Source: Spirochaetia bacterium
GTDB taxonomy: Bacteria; Spirochaetota; Leptospiria; Turneriellales; JAOUOS01
Reading direction: 5' to 3'
NCBI GenBank assembly: GCA_029880265.1
Contig: JAOUOT010000015.1
Location: 1-64,000 of the forward strand
Length of the DNA stretch: 64,000 nt
A program made the position numbers and the translations under genes. The notes beneath the pieces are model-generated. The model saw only the letters and a list, made by a program, of their open reading frames with translations, ran no database searches and had not been told where the DNA came from. Position 1 is the stretch's first letter; each line of letters begins with the position of its first letter. Below are positions 37,497 to 63,929 of this stretch, in pieces.

Positions 37497-38684
37497 ATGA
37501 AAAAAACAATAAAATACATAATCATGCTATTGACGCTTGCGTTTTTAAGCATGGGTACACAATCTTGTACGACAAACATTACAGCCAGCGTATGCGGCGA
37601 CTGGGTATGCGACTCTGATGAAGACGTCTATAGTTGCGCTGAAGACTGCGGATACTGCGGCGACTATTATTGCGCTTCAAATGAAGACAGTTCATGGTGT
37701 TCTGACTGTGGTACGTCAGCTTATTGCGGCGACGGCTGGTGTGACGCAGGCGAATATACATCTACATGTCCTTCTGACTGCGGAACAAGCTGCGGCGACG
37801 GCGCTTGTAACGGTTCAGAATCTTCTGTAACATGCTCTACTGACTGCGGCGCGGCGCCTGTCTGCGGCGACGGCTGGTGTGACGCAGGCGAATATACATC
37901 TACTTGTCCTTCAGACTGCGGAACAAGCTGCGGCGACGGCGCATGTAACGGCTCAGAAACATGGTCTTCATGCGGAATAGACTGCAGCACAGACGCAGAT
38001 GATTCATACTCAAGCGCAAACTTTACATCACTTGGCAGTACAATTAGCGGCAATGCTATTGACGTTAGCAACGATGTTGATTATTATTATCTTTATGTGT
38101 ATGCCGGTGAAACTATAACGTTTGAAACCTCAGACGGCGCAGGAAGTTGTTTAACCGATACACAACTTTATCTATACGACTCTGACGGTACTACAATGCT
38201 CACATCAAACGACGACGGGGGCTCGGGTAATTGCTCAAAGATAACTTACTCATTCGCGACTTCGCGTTATGTTTATATTGAAGTTGCCGGATATTTATCA
38301 AATACCGGGTCTTATGTGCTGGATATATATGAAGCCCCTGATTTACAGCCCAGCTCTTTTTCACCGCCCTTGTATCCTACATTTAGCGCATATAATACAT
38401 TTTCGGGATACGTTTATAATGACGGTTCTGTTGATGCTACAGATGTAGATGTTGATATCTATTGCTCAACAGATTCAATCATAACTGTTGGCGTAGATAC
38501 ATACTTGGGCTGGGTAACAATTGCAAATGTTCCGGCAGGTACTTCTACGTCCTTTTCAGGTTCCATTTTTGTATCTAGCACATGTCCGGCTACAGGTTAT
38601 TTTGGGTATGTGATTGATAAGTTTGATAACATAATTGAATTTAATGAATCAAATAATGTAAGTGGCGGATATATTTATTATTAA
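37497..38684 (+). CDS. Secreted lipoprotein with tandem CGDGxC Cys-rich repeats, pre-peptidase-like and CARDB-like domains
   Basis: A signal peptide ends GTQSC (Cys24). Residues about 32-165 contain six Cys-rich units of the form CGDGxCxxGE...CxxDCG, a pattern seen in secreted disulfide-rich modules. Residues about 165-280 resemble a bacterial pre-peptidase C-terminal (PPC) beta domain, and 285-395 resemble a CARDB adhesion module. Two larger units are near-identical at DNA level (separate entry). It is predicted to be surface or periplasmic, probably binding or adhesive. A strong terminator follows, so it is monocistronic. Confidence 0.83.
   Translation: MKKTIKYIIMLLTLAFLSMGTQSCTTNITASVCGDWVCDSDEDVYSCAEDCGYCGDYYCASNEDSSWCSDCGTSAYCGDGWCDAGEYTSTCPSDCGTSCGDGACNGSESSVTCSTDCGAAPVCGDGWCDAGEYTSTCPSDCGTSCGDGACNGSETWSSCGIDCSTDADDSYSSANFTSLGSTISGNAIDVSNDVDYYYLYVYAGETITFETSDGAGSCLTDTQLYLYDSDGTTMLTSNDDGGSGNCSKITYSFATSRYVYIEVAGYLSNTGSYVLDIYEAPDLQPSSFSPPLYPTFSAYNTFSGYVYNDGSVDATDVDVDIYCSTDSIITVGVDTYLGWVTIANVPAGTSTSFSGSIFVSSTCPATGYFGYVIDKFDNIIEFNESNNVSGGYIYY
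37725..38000 (+). repeat. Two tandem 138-bp (46-codon) repeats inside the Cys-rich gene
   Basis: Copies run 37725-37862 and 37863-38000. The first 100 or so bases of each are nearly identical, with third-position differences such as acatgt/acttgt; the last 35 bases diverge. Period is a multiple of three, so copy-number change would keep the frame. Confidence 0.85.
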
Positions 38685-39243: not shown

Positions 39244-42200
39244 ATGAAAAAAATATTCTTATTCTTTGTAATTTTTTTAGGCATTTTTTTGCTTTTTCAA
39301 ACCGGGGGGCTAAAAGCCGAGCCTACAGAAAATGAACATCCCTTTGAGCTTATATTAAACGGAGAATGGGAACTTTATATAGGCGACGATATAAACATCA
39401 AAAATATAGATTACGCGCCCCAGGGCGCAATGAAAAAAATCATTATGCCCGGCAGATACCATAAACAAGGCTATAAAAATTTGACGGGATATTCGTGGGT
39501 TAGAAAAAAATTTATGATCGATAAAATTCCCAATCAAAGTCTGGGAATTTTTTTAGGAGAAGTAAAATCAATCGACGAATGCTATTTAAATGGCCTCTTG
39601 ATTGGCAAAACAGGGTCAATGCCGCCTCATATGAATCAGGCTTATGACGTAAGACGAATTTATGACGTTCCCCTGACCATTCTAAAAAAAGGCGTCAACT
39701 CGATATCTATTCGAATCTATGAACCTCCGCCTCAAAATAGATCGGGCATAGAGGCCCAGAAAATTAAAATAGCAAGTCTTAAAAAGCTTCACAAAGAAGA
39801 CAATTATAAAAATTTTCTGGCGGCCATGGTCGCCGCCGCCTGCATGATATTAGGCTTTTACTTTCTAATACTTTATAAAAGCTTCTCGCGTTACAAAGAG
39901 GTTTTATACTTTGGTCTGGTATCAAGCGTTTTGGGGGTATATTTATTTTTCTATGAAAATACCAAGTACATTTTCTTTGATTTGAATTTTTTTAATTTCT
40001 TCTTATTAAAAAAAATAGAATACGCCTTCTTATACATGATTCCCATATTTTACATACAGTTTATATATCACTTATTCCAGTTTAAGCATGAACGTTTTCT
40101 GAAAATATTTTTGACGTTAGGTTATGTTTTATTAACTCTGGCAATGGCGGCGCCTTCTTCATATTATATGCTAAGATCTCTTTGGGCCTTTCAGCCTTAT
40201 CTTTTTTTCTCGCTCTTATACGGATTATGGGGCCATGTAAGGTTTTTTAATCAAAATAAAAAAGAGTCGTTTTATCTATTAATCGGAAACCTCTTTATGG
40301 TTATTTTCGGATTTATCGACGCGGCGGCCGTATTTAATGTTCATGATTTGCCAAAATTTCTGGCCTACGGGGTAACCGGCTATACGATAATGATAACTTT
40401 TTTTCTAAATCTCAGGCTGAAAAGAATGGATAATATTATCACAAACCAGTATAAAAGCCTGATATATTTAACCGAAAATCCCGTAGAAATTTACGATTAT
40501 TACTCTCTGGCGAGAAATTATTACGAATATTTAATGACGCGCCTAGATCTTGATAATTTTTGCATATCTATATTTGACCATAACAAGAATCGATTTTCTT
40601 TTTGCTCTAATCAAAAATGGAACAAAATATGCGAATCTTCTGAGATAGAATCTATTGACGAAGCTGATTTTTTTCTTAAAGAAGACGTCGTTAAAAATAA
40701 ATTTGCCGGGTTTCTTGCCCCGAAAGAAAAAATGTTAACAATGAATTTTCGGCTAAACGACGAAACGAGGGGAACTCTGGCCGTCGCTCACAAATTTACT
40801 GAAGATAACGAACATATTATTAATGTTTTAAGAATATTGAAAACCGAAATTGAATCGCACATACTGCGAATCGACTATAAAACCGACCTCGAGATATTAA
40901 ACACAGAACTTGAAAAAAAAGTTCGCGATAGAACAAAAGAAATTCAATTAAAAAATCTTGAACTAAAACGCTTAAATGAAATGAAAACAAGCTTTTATAC
41001 CAACATGACGCATGATATTAGAACGCCGCTTTCTCTTATTACCATACCTTTAGACAAGCTTTTGACCCAATCAGATAATTTAAATAATCTTCAAAAAAAA
41101 TCAATCGAGCACATCAAGCACAACACATATAAAATTATAACCATGGTAAACAGCCTTCTTGACGCCGCAAAAATTGAATCAAAAAAAGCTTCGGCAAATT
41201 TTGTTTACGACGATATCGCCGCTTTTATCAAAAAAATATCCGAATTATTTAAAGACATAGCTCTGCAAAAGAAAATGTTATTTAATATTAAAATCATTAA
41301 TTCTCCCATTTTGACCCTGTTTGATCCCGAAAAAATAGAAAAAACATTAAATAATTTACTGGAAAACGCTCTTAAATATAATATTCAAAATAAAGAGATT
41401 TTAATTCGCGTCGAAAAGAAAAACGATAAACTATATGAAATTGAAGTGACCGATCACGGCAGAGGCATTCCTAAAACCCGACTAAAGCATATCTTCAGAA
41501 AATTCTGGCAGCATCTTGACAATAAAGGAATTTCTCAAACCGGCACAGGTTTAGGTCTTGCTATTGTCAATGAATTTGTAAAAATGCATAAAGGAACGAT
41601 TGAAGCAAACAGCGTTGAAAATAAATATACAAAATTCATATTAAAAATGCCTATTTTAAAGCAAAAAAAATTAATTTTAAATCAGGCGTCTGACAACTTT
41701 TATCTTTCTCATCAGCAAAAAGCGAAATTTCAATCTGATATTAACAAGCAAAATCACTCGTTAAATGAAGGCGCGAATATAACCATTGAGCATCTGCCGA
41801 GGCTTCTCGCTTTTTCTGAAGATAACTCGATAAAAGAACTTTTATCAGACGCCTTAAAAGATTATTTTTCGGTCATATTCTTTCGCGATGAAAAATCGAT
41901 GAGCGACTATGCCGGCAGAAACGTTCCCGAATTTTTAATTTTTTATTATAAAAAAATTAATTCAGAAATTGTTTCGCGCTTAAATCTAATAAAAAATAAT
42001 GTAAACGTAAAGTATATTCCCGTCGTCGTTCTTTCGGCTGAAACCGACGCTCTGTCAAAAAAAGAAATCTTATCTATGGGCATAGACGATTACATTGCGC
42101 ATCCTTTTCATCCCGAAGAGCTAATCTTAAAGATGCAAAATCTAATCAATCAAAAAGGCATAAGACTTGAATTAAAAGAAAAATATCTTCAGCTAAACAG

Positions 42201-42909
42201 CGAACTTGAACTGGCAAAAAAAATACAGGAAAGTCTTCTTCCTGATATACGACTTTTGAAACCCGAGTGGAACATCGGCTACCACTTTAACCCTATCAGC
42301 AAGCTCGGAGGAGATTTTTTTTACCTTGAAAAACTTGAAGACAATTCGCTAGCGGGCATGATTTTAGACGTATCGGGTCACGGCATAGGGCCCGCTATTT
42401 TGACCATTTTATCAAGAGCGCTTTTAGAACACATCATCTTCAATGAAGGGAAAAATCCCGCCAGATTATTAGAGATTTTAAACGAGCATATTCACAAAAC
42501 CGTTATAAATTATTTTTTAACCGCATTTGCGTTTCACATATCGGCCGATAAATCTAAGATTACTTTTTCAAACGCGGGGCACCCCCCCGCTCTGCTTATA
42601 CAAAATGACAAGATAAAAGAATTAGATAACCCGGGCAAGCTGATAGGCCCATTTATAGGAAATTTCTGGAAAAATAAAGAGGTAAAATTTTCAAAAGATT
42701 CTCGTTTATTCTTGTATACTGACGGCATACTCGAAACCAGATCTGCCGGTAAAAAAAACGATATGTACGGTATAAACAAGTTAAAAAATAAAATACAGAA
42801 ATCTTTCAGAAACCAGAACGTTGTCGACGATATTATTAAAGATGTAGAATCGTATAAAGGGCCTAATAACGAATTTGAAGACGATATAACGCTTCTTATG
42901 ATAAAATAG
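39244..42909 (+). CDS. Hybrid sensor: 7TM-DISM histidine kinase with pseudo-receiver and SpoIIE-type PP2C phosphatase
   Basis: Order along 1221 residues: signal peptide; extracellular 7TMR-DISM jelly-roll-like domain (about 30-180); seven membrane helices (about 190-390); a GAF-like linker and coiled coil; HisKA with His590 in NMTHDIRTPL; HATPase_c with LLENALKYN, DHGRGI and GTGLGLAI; a receiver-like domain (about 851-975); and a SpoIIE/RsbU PP2C domain with KLGGDFF and DVSGHGIG. In the receiver, Tyr901 occupies the phospho-Asp position and His replaces the usual Lys (HPF), so it cannot be phosphorylated in the normal way. PP2C outputs usually control anti-sigma-factor antagonists. Confidence 0.9.
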   Translation: MKKIFLFFVIFLGIFLLFQTGGLKAEPTENEHPFELILNGEWELYIGDDINIKNIDYAPQGAMKKIIMPGRYHKQGYKNLTGYSWVRKKFMIDKIPNQSLGIFLGEVKSIDECYLNGLLIGKTGSMPPHMNQAYDVRRIYDVPLTILKKGVNSISIRIYEPPPQNRSGIEAQKIKIASLKKLHKEDNYKNFLAAMVAAACMILGFYFLILYKSFSRYKEVLYFGLVSSVLGVYLFFYENTKYIFFDLNFFNFFLLKKIEYAFLYMIPIFYIQFIYHLFQFKHERFLKIFLTLGYVLLTLAMAAPSSYYMLRSLWAFQPYLFFSLLYGLWGHVRFFNQNKKESFYLLIGNLFMVIFGFIDAAAVFNVHDLPKFLAYGVTGYTIMITFFLNLRLKRMDNIITNQYKSLIYLTENPVEIYDYYSLARNYYEYLMTRLDLDNFCISIFDHNKNRFSFCSNQKWNKICESSEIESIDEADFFLKEDVVKNKFAGFLAPKEKMLTMNFRLNDETRGTLAVAHKFTEDNEHIINVLRILKTEIESHILRIDYKTDLEILNTELEKKVRDRTKEIQLKNLELKRLNEMKTSFYTNMTHDIRTPLSLITIPLDKLLTQSDNLNNLQKKSIEHIKHNTYKIITMVNSLLDAAKIESKKASANFVYDDIAAFIKKISELFKDIALQKKMLFNIKIINSPILTLFDPEKIEKTLNNLLENALKYNIQNKEILIRVEKKNDKLYEIEVTDHGRGIPKTRLKHIFRKFWQHLDNKGISQTGTGLGLAIVNEFVKMHKGTIEANSVENKYTKFILKMPILKQKKLILNQASDNFYLSHQQKAKFQSDINKQNHSLNEGANITIEHLPRLLAFSEDNSIKELLSDALKDYFSVIFFRDEKSMSDYAGRNVPEFLIFYYKKINSEIVSRLNLIKNNVNVKYIPVVVLSAETDALSKKEILSMGIDDYIAHPFHPEELILKMQNLINQKGIRLELKEKYLQLNSELELAKKIQESLLPDIRLLKPEWNIGYHFNPISKLGGDFFYLEKLEDNSLAGMILDVSGHGIGPAILTILSRALLEHIIFNEGKNPARLLEILNEHIHKTVINYFLTAFAFHISADKSKITFSNAGHPPALLIQNDKIKELDNPGKLIGPFIGNFWKNKEVKFSKDSRLFLYTDGILETRSAGKKNDMYGINKLKNKIQKSFRNQNVVDDIIKDVESYKGPNNEFEDDITLLMIK

Positions 42910-54034: not shown

Positions 54035-54559
54035 TTAAAACCCATAACCTATGCCAAGACCATAAACATACGCCACATGATGATGTGCATAGTCAAAATT
54101 TACGGTAGGGGTTAAAGAAAGACTTCCTACGTGAATATCATAGGCCAGACCGCCTCTGAATACAAACGCCTTTTCGCCGCTGTGCATTTCAACGCCGGGG
54201 GCCAAAGCAATCTTAAAACCTCCCGCCGGATGTATAAACAACGCGCCCGCTACTATTGTCTGCATATGATCGCGAAACGCAAAATCAAGTATCAGGCCAA
54301 GGCCCAACAAGCCGTGCATGGCAGAAAAACGATATTCATAATCGGCTCCGGCTGTAAAGCTGGTGCTTTTATCGTAAAAAGTGGTCGCTCCAAGAAAAAT
54401 CGCCGCATGATTTGAATGAATCGCATGCCCGTCTTTTTCTTCAGAAGATTCTGTTTCTTTTGCTTCTTCAGATATCGTCTCTTCAGCCGCGTCTTGCGAA
54501 AAAAGAGGCATTGAGAAGGCTAAAAAAACAATCGCTAATATACTTGTAAACTTTTTCAT
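54035..54559 (-). CDS. Small outer-membrane beta-barrel protein
   Basis: A signal peptide (cleavage near LFSQDA) is followed by an acidic low-complexity segment (about 22-45) and eight or so alternating beta strands, ending in GLGIGYGF with C-terminal Phe, as in outer-membrane barrels of the OmpA/OmpW size class. His residues are unusually frequent (HAIHSNH and YAHHHVAY), which might bind metal. It is 174 residues. Function is unknown. Confidence 0.75.
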   Translation of the reverse strand: MKKFTSILAIVFLAFSMPLFSQDAAEETISEEAKETESSEEKDGHAIHSNHAAIFLGATTFYDKSTSFTAGADYEYRFSAMHGLLGLGLILDFAFRDHMQTIVAGALFIHPAGGFKIALAPGVEMHSGEKAFVFRGGLAYDIHVGSLSLTPTVNFDYAHHHVAYVYGLGIGYGF

Positions 54560-54792: not shown

Positions 54793-56298
54793 TTATAAGT
54801 TCATATAAAACTCTGTTAATGCTTTTTTATCAATTTTATGATTATTGCTATACGGGAACTTCTCAACTATGACAATATCTGTCGGTATCATATATTCAGG
54901 TAATTTTTTACCCAGTTTCATTTTAATTATATTAAGAATTTCTTTATATTCTTCATTAATATTATTTCGTAAAATTATAAATGCAACAATTTTAGTCACT
55001 TTCATATTTCTGCACAAAGGAACGGCAATAGCATCCTTTATTTCTTCAATTTGCAGCATAGAATTATTTATATCGCCAACCTCTATTCGAAAACCATTCA
55101 GCTTTATTTGCTCATCTTTTCTGCCAACAAAATATAAAATATTACCTTTTAAAAACCCAAAGTCTCCGGTCTTAAAGCAACGCTTATTTTCTTTTATATA
55201 AAATTTTTCTTTATTTAATTTCTCGTTATTAAAATATCCAATACTGACATGATCTCCTATAATTTCAATTTCTCCTATCTCTTTGCCATTTTCATTTTGA
55301 ACATTAATTAAGTTTATTTTCTTTTCTTTATCTATCATACCGATTGGCAAAGAGGGTTCATTATTGATGATATCTTGAGTAATTTCGATCATAGTCGTAC
55401 ATACGGTAGCTTCTGTAGGTCCGTATGCATTTATTATTCTACTATTAGAAAAATTATTTTTTATATTTTGAGTTATTTTATTCGGAAGAATCTCTCCGCA
55501 AAAAAAGAAAATTTGCAATACTGGCAATTCCCTTTCATTAAAATCTCTACTTAAAAGCATTTTAGAAATAAAGGATGGCGTTGAAACCCATATTGAACAA
55601 TCATATGCCTTTACTCTTTCAATAAACATATCAGCTTTTTCTGCAGTATTCCTATCAACCATAACTAATGAGCCGCCAAAATGCAAAAAACTCATAAGTT
55701 CAAATACTGACAAATCAAAACTAAATGGCGCCTGATTCATAAAAACCGGTTTTGAAGGCAAATTATAATCTTTTTCAATCCAGGATAAGAAGTTAATAAT
55801 TGATTTTCTGGTGATTTGAACCCCCTTCGGTTCGCCTGTACTGCCCGAAGTGAATATTATATAAACAATAGGGTCATCACTATAATAGTATTTTTCAGCA
55901 AAAACTGACGATTGTTGTATCTTAATTCCCTCTTGATAAACAATAACCGAGAAATTTGAATTTTCAATTTCTAAAGTTGATATTAATATCTCAGAACCGG
56001 TTATTTTTCTTATTTTTTCGATTCTCTCTAACGGAACATTGGTATCGAGAGGAACATAAGGCAATTCTAAGCGAATACACGCAATAATCGCAACAACATA
56101 GAACGACTCTTTATGGCCATATATGATTACCGGATGCCCTTTCGGTAAATTCATCTCTTCTAATCTTTTGCATAAACTTTCAACATTTTCTTTTAAAAAC
56201 TTCCAGCTTAAGTCAATATCTGAGCCCGAAATTGATATTCGTTCGTTATTATAGTTTATTATTTCTTCAAAGTTATTTGTTAAAAAATTATATCTCAT
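54793..56298 (-). CDS. dltA: D-alanine--carrier protein ligase, DltA-like
   Basis: This 501-residue adenylation-domain enzyme activates an amino acid with ATP and loads it on DltC. Core motifs are intact: FTSGSTGEPKG (A3), NAYGPTEAT (A5), KTGDFGF (A7), GRKDEQIKLNGFRIE (A8) and the catalytic Lys near NHKIDKKAL (A10). The FFFCGEILP segment carries the Cys that in characterised DltA favours D-alanine, so D-Ala is the likely substrate. It ends the operon, 6 bases after dltB. Composition is AT-rich compared with the flanking genes. Confidence 0.85.
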   Translation of the reverse strand: MRYNFLTNNFEEIINYNNERISISGSDIDLSWKFLKENVESLCKRLEEMNLPKGHPVIIYGHKESFYVVAIIACIRLELPYVPLDTNVPLERIEKIRKITGSEILISTLEIENSNFSVIVYQEGIKIQQSSVFAEKYYYSDDPIVYIIFTSGSTGEPKGVQITRKSIINFLSWIEKDYNLPSKPVFMNQAPFSFDLSVFELMSFLHFGGSLVMVDRNTAEKADMFIERVKAYDCSIWVSTPSFISKMLLSRDFNERELPVLQIFFFCGEILPNKITQNIKNNFSNSRIINAYGPTEATVCTTMIEITQDIINNEPSLPIGMIDKEKKINLINVQNENGKEIGEIEIIGDHVSIGYFNNEKLNKEKFYIKENKRCFKTGDFGFLKGNILYFVGRKDEQIKLNGFRIEVGDINNSMLQIEEIKDAIAVPLCRNMKVTKIVAFIILRNNINEEYKEILNIIKMKLGKKLPEYMIPTDIVIVEKFPYSNNHKIDKKALTEFYMNL

Positions 56299-56304
56299 AA
56301 TTTA

Positions 56305-57573
56305 TTAAAATCCTAAATTCATTAATATTTTATTATCTATATCTTTAAGATATGGAACCTTGGCGCTGAAAACATAGAGAGCCAGAACAACAAAATTTAT
56401 TAATATAAAAGCAGATAATACTCCGGTTATCTTAGGTGAATTAAATAAACTGTCTTTGCCTTTTATCCCTAAATAATAACGATAGCTGTTATGAACCGCA
56501 GAATAAATTCCAAACATAAAACCACTTAAAATAAAATGAAATTTTATACCATTCCACATTCCCATCAATAAAAATGTTATTATCAAAGATATATTTTGTA
56601 ATGACAATCGATATTTTCTAAGTTTTTTAAATTTATACAAATACATATAAATGGGTTTAAAGAAATAATCTTTAAGCCACGAACCTAATGTTATATGAAA
56701 CCTTCGCCAAAATTCCTGGGGATTTTTCGAAAGAAAAGGATAATTAAAATTTTCAGGTATATTTATTCCTATCATTTTCGCCGACCCGATTGCCATTGAT
56801 GAATAACCGGCAAAATCAAAATAAAAATATATAGAATATCCATACATCATCGAAATCATATCTTTTAAATTTGTACTGTTCTCATCAATATTTTTTATCC
56901 AAAAATCATCAATCATTTTAGCAATAATAAATTTTTGCAGCACGCCAATCAATAAAATACGCCAGCCTGATAAAATGTTATCTGTAGATATCTGGTCGTA
57001 TCCATTTTCAATATTATTCGCAAACCGATATGACCGATCAATTGGCCCCGCTAACAAAGTAGGCGGGAAAAGCAGAAAAGAAACAAAATCTATAATATTC
57101 ATCTCGGGATTATGCTGGCTGTCAATAATCAATTGAACCGTACGAAAAGTAATATATGACAAACCTATAAATGTGATTAATGGAATTAATATATAGAACT
57201 TTACTAATACCATTGGCAGAGCGACTAAAAGTATCCCCAAAATATTTATTATTTTCTTAGGTAAAACTAAATACTTATAAATAAAATAAATATAGACTAT
57301 AAATAATAAAGCATGAATCGGCTGAGGAAATAATATAATGATATACAAAAGGGTTAAAAAAAATATTAATTTACTATATGAAATAAATTTCTTGAAATAT
57401 TTTTTAATCAAAACTACGCCAACAGTTACTAGAATTATTATGATAAAATATTTCAATTCAGTAAAAGGTAAAATATTTCGGGAAATCTTATTTGAAAGAT
57501 TATTCTCAAAATTGTTGATATATAAACTGAACTGTTCTATTAATTTCAGAAGAGTCAATGATTTTACCTCCAT
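56305..57573 (-). CDS. dltB: MBOAT acyltransferase, DltB-like, with altered catalytic motif
   Basis: This polytopic protein of about 11 helices has the MBOAT signature NPQEFWRRFHITLG. His293 matches one conserved His, but the segment normally reading GxWHG is GMWNG: Asn341 (codon 56551-56553) replaces the His considered catalytic in DltB. The second WHG-like His is also absent (GFMFG). It should pass D-alanine from DltC across the membrane. Start is uncertain: ATG 57573 is shown, but GGAGG at 57567-57571 is ideally placed for TTG 57558. Both starts lie inside dltX. Confidence 0.82.
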   Translation of the reverse strand: MEVKSLTLLKLIEQFSLYINNFENNLSNKISRNILPFTELKYFIIIILVTVGVVLIKKYFKKFISYSKLIFFLTLLYIIILFPQPIHALLFIVYIYFIYKYLVLPKKIINILGILLVALPMVLVKFYILIPLITFIGLSYITFRTVQLIIDSQHNPEMNIIDFVSFLLFPPTLLAGPIDRSYRFANNIENGYDQISTDNILSGWRILLIGVLQKFIIAKMIDDFWIKNIDENSTNLKDMISMMYGYSIYFYFDFAGYSSMAIGSAKMIGINIPENFNYPFLSKNPQEFWRRFHITLGSWLKDYFFKPIYMYLYKFKKLRKYRLSLQNISLIITFLLMGMWNGIKFHFILSGFMFGIYSAVHNSYRYYLGIKGKDSLFNSPKITGVLSAFILINFVVLALYVFSAKVPYLKDIDNKILMNLGF

Positions 57574-57649
57574 ATAGCATTGGCATAAACAAGAGTAAGA
57601 TCAGATATAAAATAATATCAAGTATAAATACTAAGATTTTGTTTCTCAT
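57506..57649 (-). CDS. dltX: DltX-like membrane microprotein (47 residues)
   Basis: This gene fills the gap between dltD and dltB. It encodes one membrane helix (about residues 5-26) and an extracytoplasmic tail that ends QFIYQQF-stop. The C-terminal FIYxxF motif is the hallmark of DltX (FIYNEF in Gram-positives), where the tail, including its Tyr, works with DltB and DltD in D-alanine transfer. It begins 17 bases after the dltD stop and overlaps dltB in another frame, so translation is probably coupled. Shine-Dalgarno is weak. Confidence 0.75.
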   Translation of the reverse strand: MRNKILVFILDIILYLILLLFMPMLYGGKIIDSSEINRTVQFIYQQF

Positions 57650-57666
57650 ATTACGTTTTTATTTAT

Positions 57667-58830
57667 CTAATTATTATGTATAAAGCGTTTATATATTTCT
57701 TTATTCACTTTAGCCCATCCATATTCTCCGGGATGCATAAGGTCAGTTAAAACTCCTATTTCGATTTCTCCCTCATTCATCCATAAATCTAACAGCTCAA
57801 AATTTTCTTGTTTTAATTTTTTTCGAATTTTATTCAATACCTCATCATATCGATTCAGTTTTGCGTGCGCAGTCGGATGTATGGGCCATAGAACAAAAAG
57901 AGGTCTATTCTTAAAATTCTTTAATAAGTTGATAAGCATTTCAAAGTCATCATATTCTTGATTAAACAAGGGTAATCGCCTTACATGCTTTGGTAATCTT
58001 TCATACTTCATGTATTTTGTAAAATAGTCGTCATATATATAGTAATCATTATTTGTATATTTATTTATCTCTGCTATTTTTGCATTTTCTAAAATCTTTT
58101 CCCAGTCTATTTTTTTTCCCTCGTAAACAGAGTAGTCATGGGTTTCAATATCATGATTTTTTTTTAAATACTTAAAAAAATAAGCTAAATTTATTGAACC
58201 AATATTCTTTTTAAAAGAATACGCCATTGACAAGGGAGTAATATCCATTATTGTGTCATAACGTCGGTTAATATTAGAAATAATATAATTTTTAAATTCT
58301 TTTGGCGCTGAACTTTGATAGTACAAACGGTAAAACAATTCTGCATTAATATAATCAGTAAATCTTTTTATATTCGTACCTTCTGTATTAAACCATCCCG
58401 GCGATATTAAAAATACCAACCGCGCATTATTCAGCAATATCTCATTATAGAGAGAAGACAATTCTGCGAGCATTATCAGACTTTGGTGCCCTCCGCCTCC
58501 TATAGCGTTTACGGGAATTCCTAATTCTTTATTGAAAAAAATATGTGGATTATTACCGAGAGAACTTGCCAGTTCAGAAGACCCGAATATAGTAATCTTA
58601 CCGGACAACAAGGCCTTTTCGAGTTTTAAATATGATCTTTTCTTATCTGATAAATCATACAAATATTGAAAATCGGAGATTTTTCCTATATCTTCATAAG
58701 TATTTTTTTCTTTAGAATAAATATTTATATATGCAAAATTGTATTTTTCTAAAAATTTATTTATGCCGGCAGAAAATATTACAGCTATTGCCAATGCAAC
58801 AACATGCAGCATAAAATTAGTTTTTTTCAT
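57667..58830 (-). CDS. dltD: DltD-like SGNH-type acyl transfer protein
   Basis: This 387-residue protein has an N-terminal membrane anchor (about 7-25) and an extracytoplasmic SGNH-hydrolase-like domain. The Ser nucleophile lies in FGSSEL and the Asp/His pair in TDLMHPGEYGW, as in DltD, so the triad is intact. In Gram-positives DltD moves D-alanine to lipoteichoic acid on the outer face of the membrane. It overlaps dltC by 14 bases. Confidence 0.84.
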   Translation of the reverse strand: MKKTNFMLHVVALAIAVIFSAGINKFLEKYNFAYINIYSKEKNTYEDIGKISDFQYLYDLSDKKRSYLKLEKALLSGKITIFGSSELASSLGNNPHIFFNKELGIPVNAIGGGGHQSLIMLAELSSLYNEILLNNARLVFLISPGWFNTEGTNIKRFTDYINAELFYRLYYQSSAPKEFKNYIISNINRRYDTIMDITPLSMAYSFKKNIGSINLAYFFKYLKKNHDIETHDYSVYEGKKIDWEKILENAKIAEINKYTNNDYYIYDDYFTKYMKYERLPKHVRRLPLFNQEYDDFEMLINLLKNFKNRPLFVLWPIHPTAHAKLNRYDEVLNKIRKKLKQENFELLDLWMNEGEIEIGVLTDLMHPGEYGWAKVNKEIYKRFIHNN

Positions 58831-59056
58831 TTAATCGTTTTGAAATAAAATCAGAAATTTTTTCAATTGTATCAAAACTTTCAACTGTTATCTCGGTAGC
58901 GTCTATTTTTATCTTAAAAGCTTCTTCGATATTAACAGCAAGTTCAACCATATCAATTGAGCTAAGAAGATTATTCGATAATAATGGCTGATCAGCATTA
59001 ACATTTCGCATAACAATTTCTTTAACTAATTGAACAATTTTTTCTTGTATATCCAT
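58817..59056 (-). CDS. dltC: D-alanyl carrier protein, DltC-like
   Basis: This 79-residue acyl-carrier-type four-helix protein has Ser33 in LLSSIDMVEL at the phosphopantetheine attachment site; the usual preceding Asp is Ser32. It would carry the thioester-bound D-alanine from DltA to DltB. It is the first gene of the operon, with AGGA upstream of the ATG. The region 59057-59237 separates it from a divergent lipoprotein and shows no convincing promoter to my eye. Confidence 0.83.
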   Translation of the reverse strand: MDIQEKIVQLVKEIVMRNVNADQPLLSNNLLSSIDMVELAVNIEEAFKIKIDATEITVESFDTIEKISDFISKRLNEKN

Positions 59057-59237: not shown

Positions 59238-62200
59238 ATGAAACAGAATTCTAAACTTAAGACTTTTTTAATAATCTCGGCGACTTTCATATTGCTTAAT
59301 TGCAACAACAATACGTTTGAGCTTTTATCAAGCGGTCAAATCGTAAAAACGGCTGATAACATCCCTTCAATTATATCGATAACAACGTCAACGCCAGACG
59401 GAACATACGGTTTAGGCGCCGTTATAAATATTACGGTAACCATGAATGAACCGGTTACGCTATCAAACGGAACTCTTGAGGCGACCCTAGATACCGGCGA
59501 TATCGTCTCTGTTTCGGGAACCTACCCTACAGATATCTTAACGGGAACTTATATCGTGGGCTTGTCTGATTTTTCGACCGCCTTAGACGCTGTAAGCGTT
59601 GGCCTTTCAAACGGCGCGTCTCTTGAAGACGATACGGGAAACAACGCCGATTTAACAATGCCGTCTATTACAATAGCCTCAAACAGTTTTATCGTTATAG
59701 ATACCGCTTCGCCTTCTGTTCTTTCGGTAACTTCGTCAACGGCAGACGGGTCTTATAAAGAAGGCGCATCAGTAAATGTTACGGTTACCATGAGCGCACA
59801 GGTTATCTTATCAGGAGGAACTCTTGACGTGACGCTAGATACAGGCGACGTGATCTCTGTTTCAGGAAGCTATCCCGCCGATATATTAACCGGAAGCTAT
59901 ATTGTTGGCGCAGGCGATACCTCTCTAGCTTTAGATTCTACCACAATTTCATTAAACGGGGGCACCTTAAAAGACAGCCTCGGAAACAACGCTAATTTAA
60001 CAATGCCCGCGACAACAATCGCAACAACAAGCGCTATTGTCATTGATACATCTGCCCCGGCGATTATTTCAGCGCAGACATTAGACGCCGATCATAACGG
60101 CTTTGTCGATCATTACAAAATTACTTTTTCTGAAAATGTTCAAGATTCAACATTCCCCGGATATATCGCCAACGCGCAGGGAACCATTACAACCGACTGG
60201 CTTATAGCCGGTTATACAAACGTAAAACTGGCCCATGGAACAGCCGCCCCTGAGGTTGATAATACAGACGACAATGTCATTTATATTATTTTTACCGAAG
60301 CCGCATCAGAAGACACCGGCTTAAAACCCGATTTAACGACAAGCGCGCTACCCGGCTTACAAGATATCGCCGGCAATAGTATCTCTCAATTAACGACAGT
60401 CAGCGTTACAGAAACCGACGGCGCGATACCGGTTGTAGCATTTGCCGAAGGTACAAGCAATACATCGGTCGAGGTTACATTTTCTGAACCTGTTCAGGCG
60501 GCTGACGCCGAAATTGCCGTTAATTATACCGTTACGGGCGACGGAGGATTAACCGTCTCTAACGCTGTCATGTCGGGAGGATCCGGCGTTGACGGCAAGA
60601 AAGTCGTTCTTACAACATTTTCGCAGACGGTGGGCATAAACAACTATACCGTAACCGTAACAGAGGGGGCCGTTAAAGATTTAGCGAATAACGGCGTTTT
60701 AACAGGCTTTAGCAGCGCGTTATTTTCGGGACAGCCTGAAGTACTTCGTCTTTCTTCGGCTTCGGGCATAAATAACACAACCGTATACATAACATTTTCT
60801 GCGGCAGTAAAGGCCCCAGACGCCGAATGCTCAAGCGCAGTCGCCTGCGACGGGGTAATTTACTCTATAGCCGGTTTAACGGTACAAAACGCGGCCATGG
60901 CAGGCGGCCCGGGCATTGACGGAACAACAGTCGTCTTGACCACGTCGCAGCAGTTAAACAGCGCCGTTAACGGATATACCATTACGGTAACAGGCGGAAT
61001 AATAAGAGATTCAGCCACAGGCACAGTTACCTGCGACGGCCCCGATAATACCGCTTCTTTCACGGGAGATAAACTGCCTTCTATAATTTCGGCCTCGTCT
61101 ATTGACGCAACGCATGTAAATGTTACATTTTCAGAACCCGTCACCTGGGATGCAAGCGCAACGGGGGCTCTTCTTGAAACAAATTACGCGATAGACAACG
61201 GCTTAACAGTATCATCGTCTACGTCGCAAACTCCTACAACGGTTGTTCAGCTAACCACTTTGTCGCAGACAGCCTCAACTTTGTATACCGTTACCGTCTC
61301 GAATATAACCGATACAACGGGCAACACAATAAACCCCGCGGCAAATACGGCGACATTTCTGGGGCTTGAAAATATAAAGGTTTTAAGCATGGCAGAAATT
61401 ATCGCAAATACGGCGACAACCTTTAGAATCTTAGAAACTACCTTTTCAAAAGAATTCATAACCGACGGCGGCGCAAACGCAGTAAATAATCTGTTAAACT
61501 GGAAAGCCCCCGCCGGCGCGAATATACTGGGCGTCTGTACATCGGTAGACGATACCGCCTGCCCGGTAAGCGGTTATTCAAACGGCAATACAATAATTTA
61601 CTTTAAGGTAGACGACGGTTTAGGATCCCCTCCGGTTCAAGGCGCATATACCTTTGTCGCCTCGGGCTGGGACGGAGCCGCTTACACTGTAGCAGGCGCC
61701 CCGGGCTGTATTCTTCCTAACGGCGGGGCCGAATACGGCGATTGTCTGCAGTCAAACCCTAACGATCGCGCCAGTGTAGAATTTGGCGCTTTGCCCACCA
61801 ACCCCGGCGACGGCCCGGTTTACTCTGACCCTTTTAACGACGGCGTTACGCTTTCGGGTCTGGTATTTACCTATAACGGCAAGCTAATGATAGGGCCAAA
61901 CGATACCGATTCGGGAATTTTTCAGGTAGACGTCGATATGCTTAACTCGCAGACAATCACTCTTGACGCCGATAATGTTACAGCGGGCAACCAAGCCTTC
62001 GCGCCGCCTCTTCTAGAAGACCCTACTGGCAACATTCTGGCCGGCATCGATTACTTTTACGCGGGATGCTACAGCGACACATTGAACCTTGATTCAACCC
62101 TTACGGGAACAGATTGTTCAACGGCAGGCGGATCAGAATACTTGTTTACCCTTGGCTACAATACCGATAACGCGGGCGGTTCTGTCGGTTATAATTCAAA

Positions 62201-63479
62201 CTGGAACACCACAAATATCACGTCGCCTTTTGTTTTTAACCACATCACAGGCTTATCAAGCAACGTAACCAGAACCTTCAGAGCAATGAGCATTGTCATC
62301 TTCAAAGGATGGATCTACCAGGCCTCGCAGCATCAGGCGGGCACTCGCGCCGTAAGATGGAACCGCTTTCTGCCCGACGGGTCAAGCAAACCCGATTTAA
62401 GAGGAGACCGTCTAAACAGAATAGGAGAAGGCGGCACAATACCAAACGGGCAGGGAGCCAAGATTATAGGCCTAATATCTATAGACAGCATGTATGAATA
62501 TGACAATGACGGAGCGGGTTCAAACGAATCTCAGCTTTATATCGCCAACGGCGGCTCATGCCTTGAAGCGGGCGGCGGCCTTCCCGGAGGCTCTGACGAC
62601 TGCTTAACCGATCAGGTAAGAAACGGTACAACAGATTCAGACGGAGGCATCTTGCGAACAAATTTAACCTATTCGACTTTTGCCAACCCGCCCCTTACAT
62701 GCACATCGACAGCTCATTGCGACAGCATGTGGGACGACGTAACGCCGAATCACTCAAACTGGCTTAAATTTATGTCAATAGCTCTGCCCGATGACGCGAC
62801 AGCGGGGGGCGACTGGGACGCTCTTGTACCCGCCAATACAATCACGCCCGCTATTAAGGCCATACCCTATATGGTTTCTTTTAACGGCGATATGTATATC
62901 ATTCGAAACGCCTGCTCGAGCGTATATACCCACACTGTCGCGACGGGAGATTTTATCTCTAACGGCCGAAAAACCTGCACCGCCGGCAACGAAGTTCCGC
63001 AATTATGGAAGCTTCCCGCCGGAACGACAGCGTCTCCTAAAGGGTCTTCTGACTGGGCCTTTATAGGCAATGTTACAAACGGCAAAACAACCATGGCAGG
63101 GGCCGACTGGTCAGATACGATAAACCATCCGTCATATGCCGACAATAATACTGAAATCACACTTTTAGCGGTGGTAGGCGACAGACTTTATGTCGGCTTT
63201 GACAACGCGGTAAACGGCGTTAATATATGGCGAAGCAAAAACGGCATTACAAGCCCCGCCGGAGAATCTGACTTTGAAGCTATCTGCGATACCAATCTGG
63301 CCTGCTCAGATATGGCCAAGCAATTCGGATTCGGCACCATAGGCGACGCGAGCTCTACAAACGACATTAAACGTCTGTTTGACAAAACTGAAGTTACCGA
63401 CGCGGGAGTCGACTATCTGGTATTTACCGCCGGCGACGGGGTAAATCCCGTAAAGGTTTACCGCTCGACCAACGATTAA
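59238..63479 (+). CDS. Very large surface lipoprotein with repeated Ig-like/SwmB-like beta domains
   Basis: A signal peptide ends ILLNC (Cys22). At least six beta-sandwich units follow (about residues 45-725), each with the SEPV/TFSEPV-type 'functionally opposed sign' pattern of SwmB/Big-like domains. The first two (about 45-155 and 158-270) are close duplicates, sharing ATLDTGD/DVTLDTGD and NNADLTMP/NNANLTMP. Residues 730-1413 form a distinct, Cys-containing region that looks like a beta-propeller or lectin-like fold. AAAGGAG precedes the ATG. It is probably an exposed adhesin or binding protein; the ligand is unknown. Confidence 0.85.
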   Translation: MKQNSKLKTFLIISATFILLNCNNNTFELLSSGQIVKTADNIPSIISITTSTPDGTYGLGAVINITVTMNEPVTLSNGTLEATLDTGDIVSVSGTYPTDILTGTYIVGLSDFSTALDAVSVGLSNGASLEDDTGNNADLTMPSITIASNSFIVIDTASPSVLSVTSSTADGSYKEGASVNVTVTMSAQVILSGGTLDVTLDTGDVISVSGSYPADILTGSYIVGAGDTSLALDSTTISLNGGTLKDSLGNNANLTMPATTIATTSAIVIDTSAPAIISAQTLDADHNGFVDHYKITFSENVQDSTFPGYIANAQGTITTDWLIAGYTNVKLAHGTAAPEVDNTDDNVIYIIFTEAASEDTGLKPDLTTSALPGLQDIAGNSISQLTTVSVTETDGAIPVVAFAEGTSNTSVEVTFSEPVQAADAEIAVNYTVTGDGGLTVSNAVMSGGSGVDGKKVVLTTFSQTVGINNYTVTVTEGAVKDLANNGVLTGFSSALFSGQPEVLRLSSASGINNTTVYITFSAAVKAPDAECSSAVACDGVIYSIAGLTVQNAAMAGGPGIDGTTVVLTTSQQLNSAVNGYTITVTGGIIRDSATGTVTCDGPDNTASFTGDKLPSIISASSIDATHVNVTFSEPVTWDASATGALLETNYAIDNGLTVSSSTSQTPTTVVQLTTLSQTASTLYTVTVSNITDTTGNTINPAANTATFLGLENIKVLSMAEIIANTATTFRILETTFSKEFITDGGANAVNNLLNWKAPAGANILGVCTSVDDTACPVSGYSNGNTIIYFKVDDGLGSPPVQGAYTFVASGWDGAAYTVAGAPGCILPNGGAEYGDCLQSNPNDRASVEFGALPTNPGDGPVYSDPFNDGVTLSGLVFTYNGKLMIGPNDTDSGIFQVDVDMLNSQTITLDADNVTAGNQAFAPPLLEDPTGNILAGIDYFYAGCYSDTLNLDSTLTGTDCSTAGGSEYLFTLGYNTDNAGGSVGYNSNWNTTNITSPFVFNHITGLSSNVTRTFRAMSIVIFKGWIYQASQHQAGTRAVRWNRFLPDGSSKPDLRGDRLNRIGEGGTIPNGQGAKIIGLISIDSMYEYDNDGAGSNESQLYIANGGSCLEAGGGLPGGSDDCLTDQVRNGTTDSDGGILRTNLTYSTFANPPLTCTSTAHCDSMWDDVTPNHSNWLKFMSIALPDDATAGGDWDALVPANTITPAIKAIPYMVSFNGDMYIIRNACSSVYTHTVATGDFISNGRKTCTAGNEVPQLWKLPAGTTASPKGSSDWAFIGNVTNGKTTMAGADWSDTINHPSYADNNTEITLLAVVGDRLYVGFDNAVNGVNIWRSKNGITSPAGESDFEAICDTNLACSDMAKQFGFGTIGDASSTNDIKRLFDKTEVTDAGVDYLVFTAGDGVNPVKVYRSTND

Positions 63480-63482
63480 AAT

Positions 63483-63929
63483 ATGATTTATAATTTTATG
63501 ATGTTGAACATTAAAAAAAAGGCTGTATATTTGCTTATCGTTTTGGTAAGCCTTTATGCAGCCGCCTGCGGCGGTCAAGACAAGCCCGACTTTAGCGAAA
63601 CGCAAGCAGAATATACCGAAGAAAACCCCGGCAAGTGGGCAGACAAGGTTTCGGATCACTTGCCGAAAATAGAAATTTTACAGAAACAAAGAGATAATGT
63701 TCTAATTTACGTTATCTTAAAAGACGCAAGCGATACTCATTATATAGAAAAAATAGGCGTCATCGACGCCGACAACAAAATACTGCATGAAAAATCTTTC
63801 GGCAGGGGCCGCCAAAACAGCTATAACGCATGGTTTACCATGAACCTCTCTGATTATAAGGGCAAAGAATTAAAAGTTTACGCCAAATGCAGCAGGCACG
63901 ACTTGTGGGTCAAGATGTGGGCGCCGTAA
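63483..63929 (+). CDS. Lipoprotein of the desulfoferrodoxin/superoxide reductase family with an incomplete iron site
   Basis: A signal peptide ends LYAAAC (Cys29). The mature part matches the superoxide reductase fold: H59 in DHLPKIEI, H86 in DTHYIEKIG, then C136 and H139 in KCSRHDLW. The fourth equatorial His (of the usual HPM) is Lys80, so only four of five iron ligands are present. It may be a weakened superoxide reductase or have another role. It begins 3 bases after the large lipoprotein, so the two are co-transcribed. Start could also be ATG 63501. Confidence 0.65.
   Translation: MIYNFMMLNIKKKAVYLLIVLVSLYAAACGGQDKPDFSETQAEYTEENPGKWADKVSDHLPKIEILQKQRDNVLIYVILKDASDTHYIEKIGVIDADNKILHEKSFGRGRQNSYNAWFTMNLSDYKGKELKVYAKCSRHDLWVKMWAP

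Follow-up and report, generated by a model that had tools for sequence, protein, structure and literature searches.

Described Dlt systems and the operon

In Gram-positive bacteria, D-alanine is relayed from DltA through DltC, DltB, a tyrosine of DltX and a serine of DltD to its acceptor (PMC12148441), which for the dltXABCD systems is teichoic acid. Among diderm bacteria, the Bordetella dra locus has been reported to add D-alanine to the outer membrane (PMC4448142), and dltB mutants of Dickeya dadantii are sensitive to polymyxin (PMC3544676). According to the citation of Pandin 2016 in PMC5541007, mutation of dltD in D. dadantii did not make the cells sensitive to peptides, which makes the role of DltD in diderms less clear. 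The PatA/PatB system of peptidoglycan O-acetylation resembles the operon described here in its pair of MBOAT and SGNH proteins and its tyrosine shuttle motif (PMC12148441). However, it uses acetyl-CoA as donor, has no carrier or adenylating enzyme, carries the shuttle motif fused to the MBOAT and keeps the MBOAT histidine.

We analyzed a 64,000-nt stretch of spirochaete DNA (the window), in which five minus-strand genes at 54793-59056 form a C-D-X-B-A set with all five frames open (Table 1), as an earlier note on this DNA had claimed. The dltC and dltD genes overlap by 14 nt, 17 nt lie between the end of dltD and the start of dltX, and dltB ends 6 nt before dltA. The start of dltB falls within dltX or just past its end. 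Its candidates are an ATG at 57573, overlapping dltX, and a TTG at 57558, preceded by GGAGG, and homology to relatives starts at 57468. Promoter and terminator counts were at chance level.

Table 1. Genes of the Dlt-type operon, with positions in the window
Gene	Position	Strand	Product and features	Main match
dltC-like	58817..59056	-	79-aa carrier protein, phosphopantetheine site Ser33	PP-binding (PF00550) 1.6e-6
dltD-like	57667..58830	-	387-aa SGNH transferase, one N-terminal TM helix, triad Ser85/Asp363/His366	DltD (PF04914) 5.9e-52
dltX-like	57506..57649	-	47-aa microprotein, C-terminal FIYQQF	position in D-B gap and motif
dltB-like	56305..57573	-	MBOAT, 5' start uncertain	Pfam MBOAT 6.9e-15; TIGR04091 258 bits
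dltA-like	54793..56298	-	501-aa amino-acid adenylating enzyme; Asp195, Cys267, Lys488	Pfam AMP-binding 1.2e-54; PRK04813 462 bits

Family assignment and predicted folds

All five components of a Dlt system are encoded together. The top NCBIfam models for the DltA, DltB and DltD proteins were those of DltA, DltB and DltD, at 462, 258 and 135 bits against curated cut-offs of 476, 375 and 150. The carrier was matched best by models of other acyl carriers, with DltC ranking third (34 bits against a cut-off of 68), and the microprotein scored 10 bits against Pfam DltX. Scores under all four curated NCBIfam cut-offs indicate a divergent relative of the Dlt system. Of the 353 ORFs in the window that encode 30-80 aa, the microprotein's alone ends in FxYxxF, and equivalents are present in the loci of relatives.

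The top matches of the adenylating enzyme in both NCBIfam and the PDB are DltA (in the PDB, B. cereus DltA at 6.9e-95). The predicted DltB structure (pLDDT 90.8) is closest to solved DltB structures, with TM scores of 0.78-0.80, and that of DltD (pLDDT 79.7) to DltD structures (E 5e-13, TM 0.5-0.6); plasmid-derived rows were left out of the alignments behind the structure models. The DltA motifs, the carrier serine and the DltD triad that had been read as intact are all present, and DltA Asp195, Lys158 and Lys488, DltC Ser33 and DltD Ser85, Asp363 and His366 are invariant among aligned relatives. DltB has the MBOAT fold and matches the Pfam model but has Asn341 at the position of the histidine in transmembrane helix 7 (TM7).

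Gene order and phylogeny

A scan of 84,980 species genomes with a two-row DltB alignment as query yielded 80 loci, and neither a single-protein DltB scan of genomes nor a DltD search of plasmids gave a match. The closest relatives are Bacteroidota metagenome-assembled genomes (MAGs), followed by Bordetella and other Alcaligenaceae, Enterobacteriaceae and Firmicutes. Gene order was read by homology and DltX by motif search. The C-D-X-B-A order recurs in the Bacteroidota and Bordetella loci. X was not called by the motif search in five Candidimonas/Paralcaligenes loci, two of which nevertheless gave a match to an X-like ORF. Enterobacteriaceae and one Chryseobacterium record have D-X-B-A-C, most Firmicutes have A-B-C-D, and D lies upstream in Peptostreptococcus. 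The earlier note had set the order in the window against the Gram-positive X-A-B-C-D. The difference is real, but the order is not peculiar, being the ordinary diderm one of Bordetella and Bacteroidota. The shared order marks this as a diderm (dra-type) operon rather than a Gram-positive dlt with its genes reshuffled.

The Bacteroidota loci (L014-L020) share with the window the order, X being called in 7/7, the FxYxxF tails and an Asn in DltB, which is 39-46% identical to that of the window. They differ in having Ala, Met or Ile at DltA position 267 and in their neighboring genes. The Bordetella/Alcaligenaceae loci (L021-L027, L053, L059 and L067) have the same order, the DltB Asn and the DltA Cys, with a DltX tail of FQYQQF in Bordetella, but form a separate clade, and their DltB is 33-41% identical to that of the window over the best-matching segment. 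We take these loci to be the dra locus on the basis of their genus and gene content; none of them comes from B. pertussis itself. The enterobacterial systems (Dickeya, Pectobacterium and a Klebsiella plasmid) share the D-X-B-A block and the DltB Asn, whereas their C is last and Ile replaces the DltA Cys. Gram-positive dltXABCD systems have the same five components, motifs and folds, but another gene order and a catalytic His336.

In a tree of DltA, DltB and DltD, the window branches beside the Bacteroidota (support 97/96), and a 100/100 branch parts all diderm loci from Firmicutes. A tree built without DltB concurs (96/88). As the end branch of the window is long (0.98-1.18), the sister relation to Bacteroidota is likely, not certain. 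With its D-X-B-A block, its DltB Asn and its place in the diderm clade, features by which we, rather than a curator, delimit the group, the operon is by its sequence a diderm (dra-type) Dlt, first seen here in Spirochaetota.

An asparagine in place of the MBOAT histidine

The TM7 histidine of MBOAT proteins is considered universally conserved and is required in DltB and PatA (PMC12148441), and the MBOAT histidine is elsewhere described as invariant (PMC12979248). In the window DltB, His293 falls at the position of His289 in S. thermophilus DltB, and Asn341 at that of His336. The latter position is Asn in 69/69 diderm-type DltBs, a count that includes the window, and His in 15/15 Gram-positive ones, in a sample biased to window-like sequences and containing many near-copies. 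This distribution amounts to one change on the tree built without DltB. The patterns by which the loci were retrieved lie elsewhere in DltB, so the residue at this position was not directly selected for. We found no published mention of the Asn in the literature searched, which leaves out most subscription journals. The apparently clade-wide asparagine is the feature of most interest in the operon, and the earlier note had missed it.

Does the substitution leave DltB inactive? It could be dead at its MBOAT site and act only as a channel or scaffold, with D-alanine reaching DltX or DltD in some other way. The requirement for His in DltB and PatA speaks for this reading, which we nevertheless consider quite unlikely: conservation of Asn in all 69 diderm-type proteins indicates constraint rather than decay, His293 and the DltX shuttle tail are retained, and D. 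dadantii dltB mutants show a phenotype. Since the Dickeya species read here (L033 and L034) have the Asn, that phenotype suggests that an Asn-type DltB matters in vivo. It speaks to the need for the protein, the catalytic role of the Asn being a separate question.

On balance, and by a small margin, we favor the view that diderm DltBs transfer the D-alanyl group without the TM7 MBOAT histidine, by way of the histidine of the re-entrant loop and the TM7 asparagine. This putative dyad may well mirror the Asn/His pair seen in PORCN and DGAT1, with the places exchanged, and would then be a clade-wide alternative active site that reaches Spirochaetota. The departure from a residue called universally conserved and required (PMC12148441, PMC12979248) raises the question of whether MBOAT transfer needs the histidine.

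The only other MBOAT found in the genome (L114, C26:68532-69203) is PatA-like and keeps the histidine of the WHG motif. Its C-terminal FIYFVF is an acyl-shuttle tail on the same chain as the MBOAT.

Cargo of the relay

DltA Cys267 corresponds in the alignment to Cys269 of the B. cereus enzyme, where this residue sets chirality. Alcaligenaceae and most Firmicutes have Cys at this position, Enterobacteriaceae have Ile, and Bacteroidota have Ala, Met or Ile, so the cargo may differ within the group. It is conceivable, if rather improbable, that the same machinery carries another small amino acid (L-Ala, Gly or Ser) activated by DltA, much as AlmE of Vibrio cholerae uses glycine. The variability of this position in the nearest relatives and the DltA and DltC scores under the NCBIfam cut-offs would fit such a substrate. 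However, the window DltA retains the Cys, as Gram-positive DltA does, and its top matches by model and in the PDB are DltA proteins. Cys267 agrees with D-alanine as the substrate, short of proof.

Host genome and evidence for lateral transfer

FlaA (PF04620) was detected in 59/60 genomes of the phylum and in 0/14 controls, and its three copies in this genome identify the host as a spirochaete. The genome also encodes LpxB, an alanine racemase and two PPTase-type proteins. No gene of the Glyphos_transf (TagF-type) family, the teichoic-acid family to which the search was limited, was found in it.

Full-length DltD (PF04914) occurs in this genome only, 1/393 in the phylum (~168 genera), five others having partial, weak matches. 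As the model recovers diderm DltDs in five other genomes at 4e-23 or better, absence from the other spirochaete genomes is meaningful. We saw the operon in no other sampled genome of the phylum. Genes of Leptospira named "dltB" owe the name to an MBOAT annotation, and no other sampled genome of the phylum has a full DltD. In the phylum of one of the relatives, Bacteroidota, a clear DltD match was likewise found in 1/396 genomes, namely that relative itself. The Dlt module is thus rare and scattered among diderms. On plasmids of Klebsiella electrica and Enterobacter cloacae (L011 and L012), a complete D-X-B-A-C block is flanked by insertion sequences, and one of the plasmids is typed as conjugative, which indicates that the diderm module is mobile. 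The Dlt relay circulates among diderm bacteria as a rare module.

The dlt genes have 25-30% GC and 15-27% GC3, against 38.2% (sd 5.0) and 36.2% (sd 5.7) in the 45 other genes of the window, the lowest GC among which is 28.8%. The AT-richness relative to the flanks that had been claimed is thus genuine, though not extreme. Given the spirochaete host, the AT-rich operon and the absence of DltD from the rest of the 393 genomes, lateral acquisition is well supported, and the tree adds to the support for the transfer that the earlier note had suggested.

Could the operon be a stray acquisition without lasting function (recent or silent), or foreign to the genome through an assembly error? In favor of this are the AT-richness, a clear DltD match in 1/393 genomes and the draft state of the genome, which is in 50 contigs; the contig with the operon is 78 kb long. 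We regard this as very improbable, however. All frames are open and the conserved residues are all kept, except for the clade-wide Asn. CcmF on one flank and a 699-aa protein on the other have their best matches (76% and 63% identity) in the same genome, the one other of the family, which argues against a chimera. That genome keeps only CcmE-CcmF beside the site with no further synteny, so an empty site is not definable.

Proposed function and acceptor

We consider the locus to be a laterally acquired diderm (dra-type) Dlt operon that runs a D-alanine relay to an envelope acceptor, with a probability of about 0.78. Its direct basis is which genes are present and in what order, together with their conserved residues, the folds, the trees and the host phylum, and every chemical step and the specificity for D-alanine are read across from homologues. 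In favor are the five components with their catalytic residues and folds, the order shared with Bordetella and Bacteroidota, the tree, DltA Cys267, and a host with alanine racemase, PPTase-type genes and LpxB and no Glyphos_transf gene, together with the relay mechanism described for Gram-positives (PMC12148441), the polymyxin sensitivity of D. dadantii dltB mutants (PMC3544676) and the report on dra (PMC4448142). Against it we count the sub-cut-off scores, a DltB lacking the His required in Gram-positive DltB (PMC12148441) and the D. dadantii dltD mutant without peptide sensitivity (Pandin 2016, cited in PMC5541007). The Dlt-type operon and its transfer into a spirochaete, as first proposed, are supported, with the gene-order argument corrected.

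In the relay, DltA would adenylate D-alanine and load it onto the phosphopantetheine of DltC Ser33. DltB would pick it up at the cytoplasmic face and pass it to the tyrosine of the DltX FIYQQF tail, from which DltX would deliver it to DltD Ser85 on the periplasmic side. DltD would then esterify it to the envelope acceptor. This would reduce negative charge and probably increase resistance to cationic peptides.

The acceptor would most probably be a glycan or protein of the periplasm or outer membrane, not teichoic acid, and the finding sharpens the question of what Dlt modifies in a diderm cell. The neighbors of the Bacteroidota loci include no shared gene and no common acceptor candidate. By position only, a 1413-aa putative lipoprotein (59238-63479, plus strand) is a candidate acceptor. 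Its gene is divergent, 181 nt from dltC, and encodes Ig-like repeats (Big_5, 6.1e-13). At 48% GC it is markedly GC-rich compared with the adjoining AT-rich operon, and the surroundings of CcmE-CcmF in the same-family genome contain no homologue of it.

Other ORFs in the window

Between ccmE and dltA, a 174-aa minus-strand ORF (54035-54559) has a signal peptide and the look of an outer-membrane barrel, with no Pfam or NCBIfam match. A lipoprotein-like plus-strand ORF at 63483-63929 has a weak match to a desulfoferrodoxin domain (1.3e-4), unusual for an exported protein. Farther away on the plus strand, the lipoprotein-like ORF at 37497-38684 contains tandem cysteine-rich repeats of CGDGWCDAGEYTSTCPSDCG type, and a 1221-aa ORF (39244-42909) appears by eye to combine a 7TM sensor, a histidine kinase, a receiver and a SpoIIE-type phosphatase.
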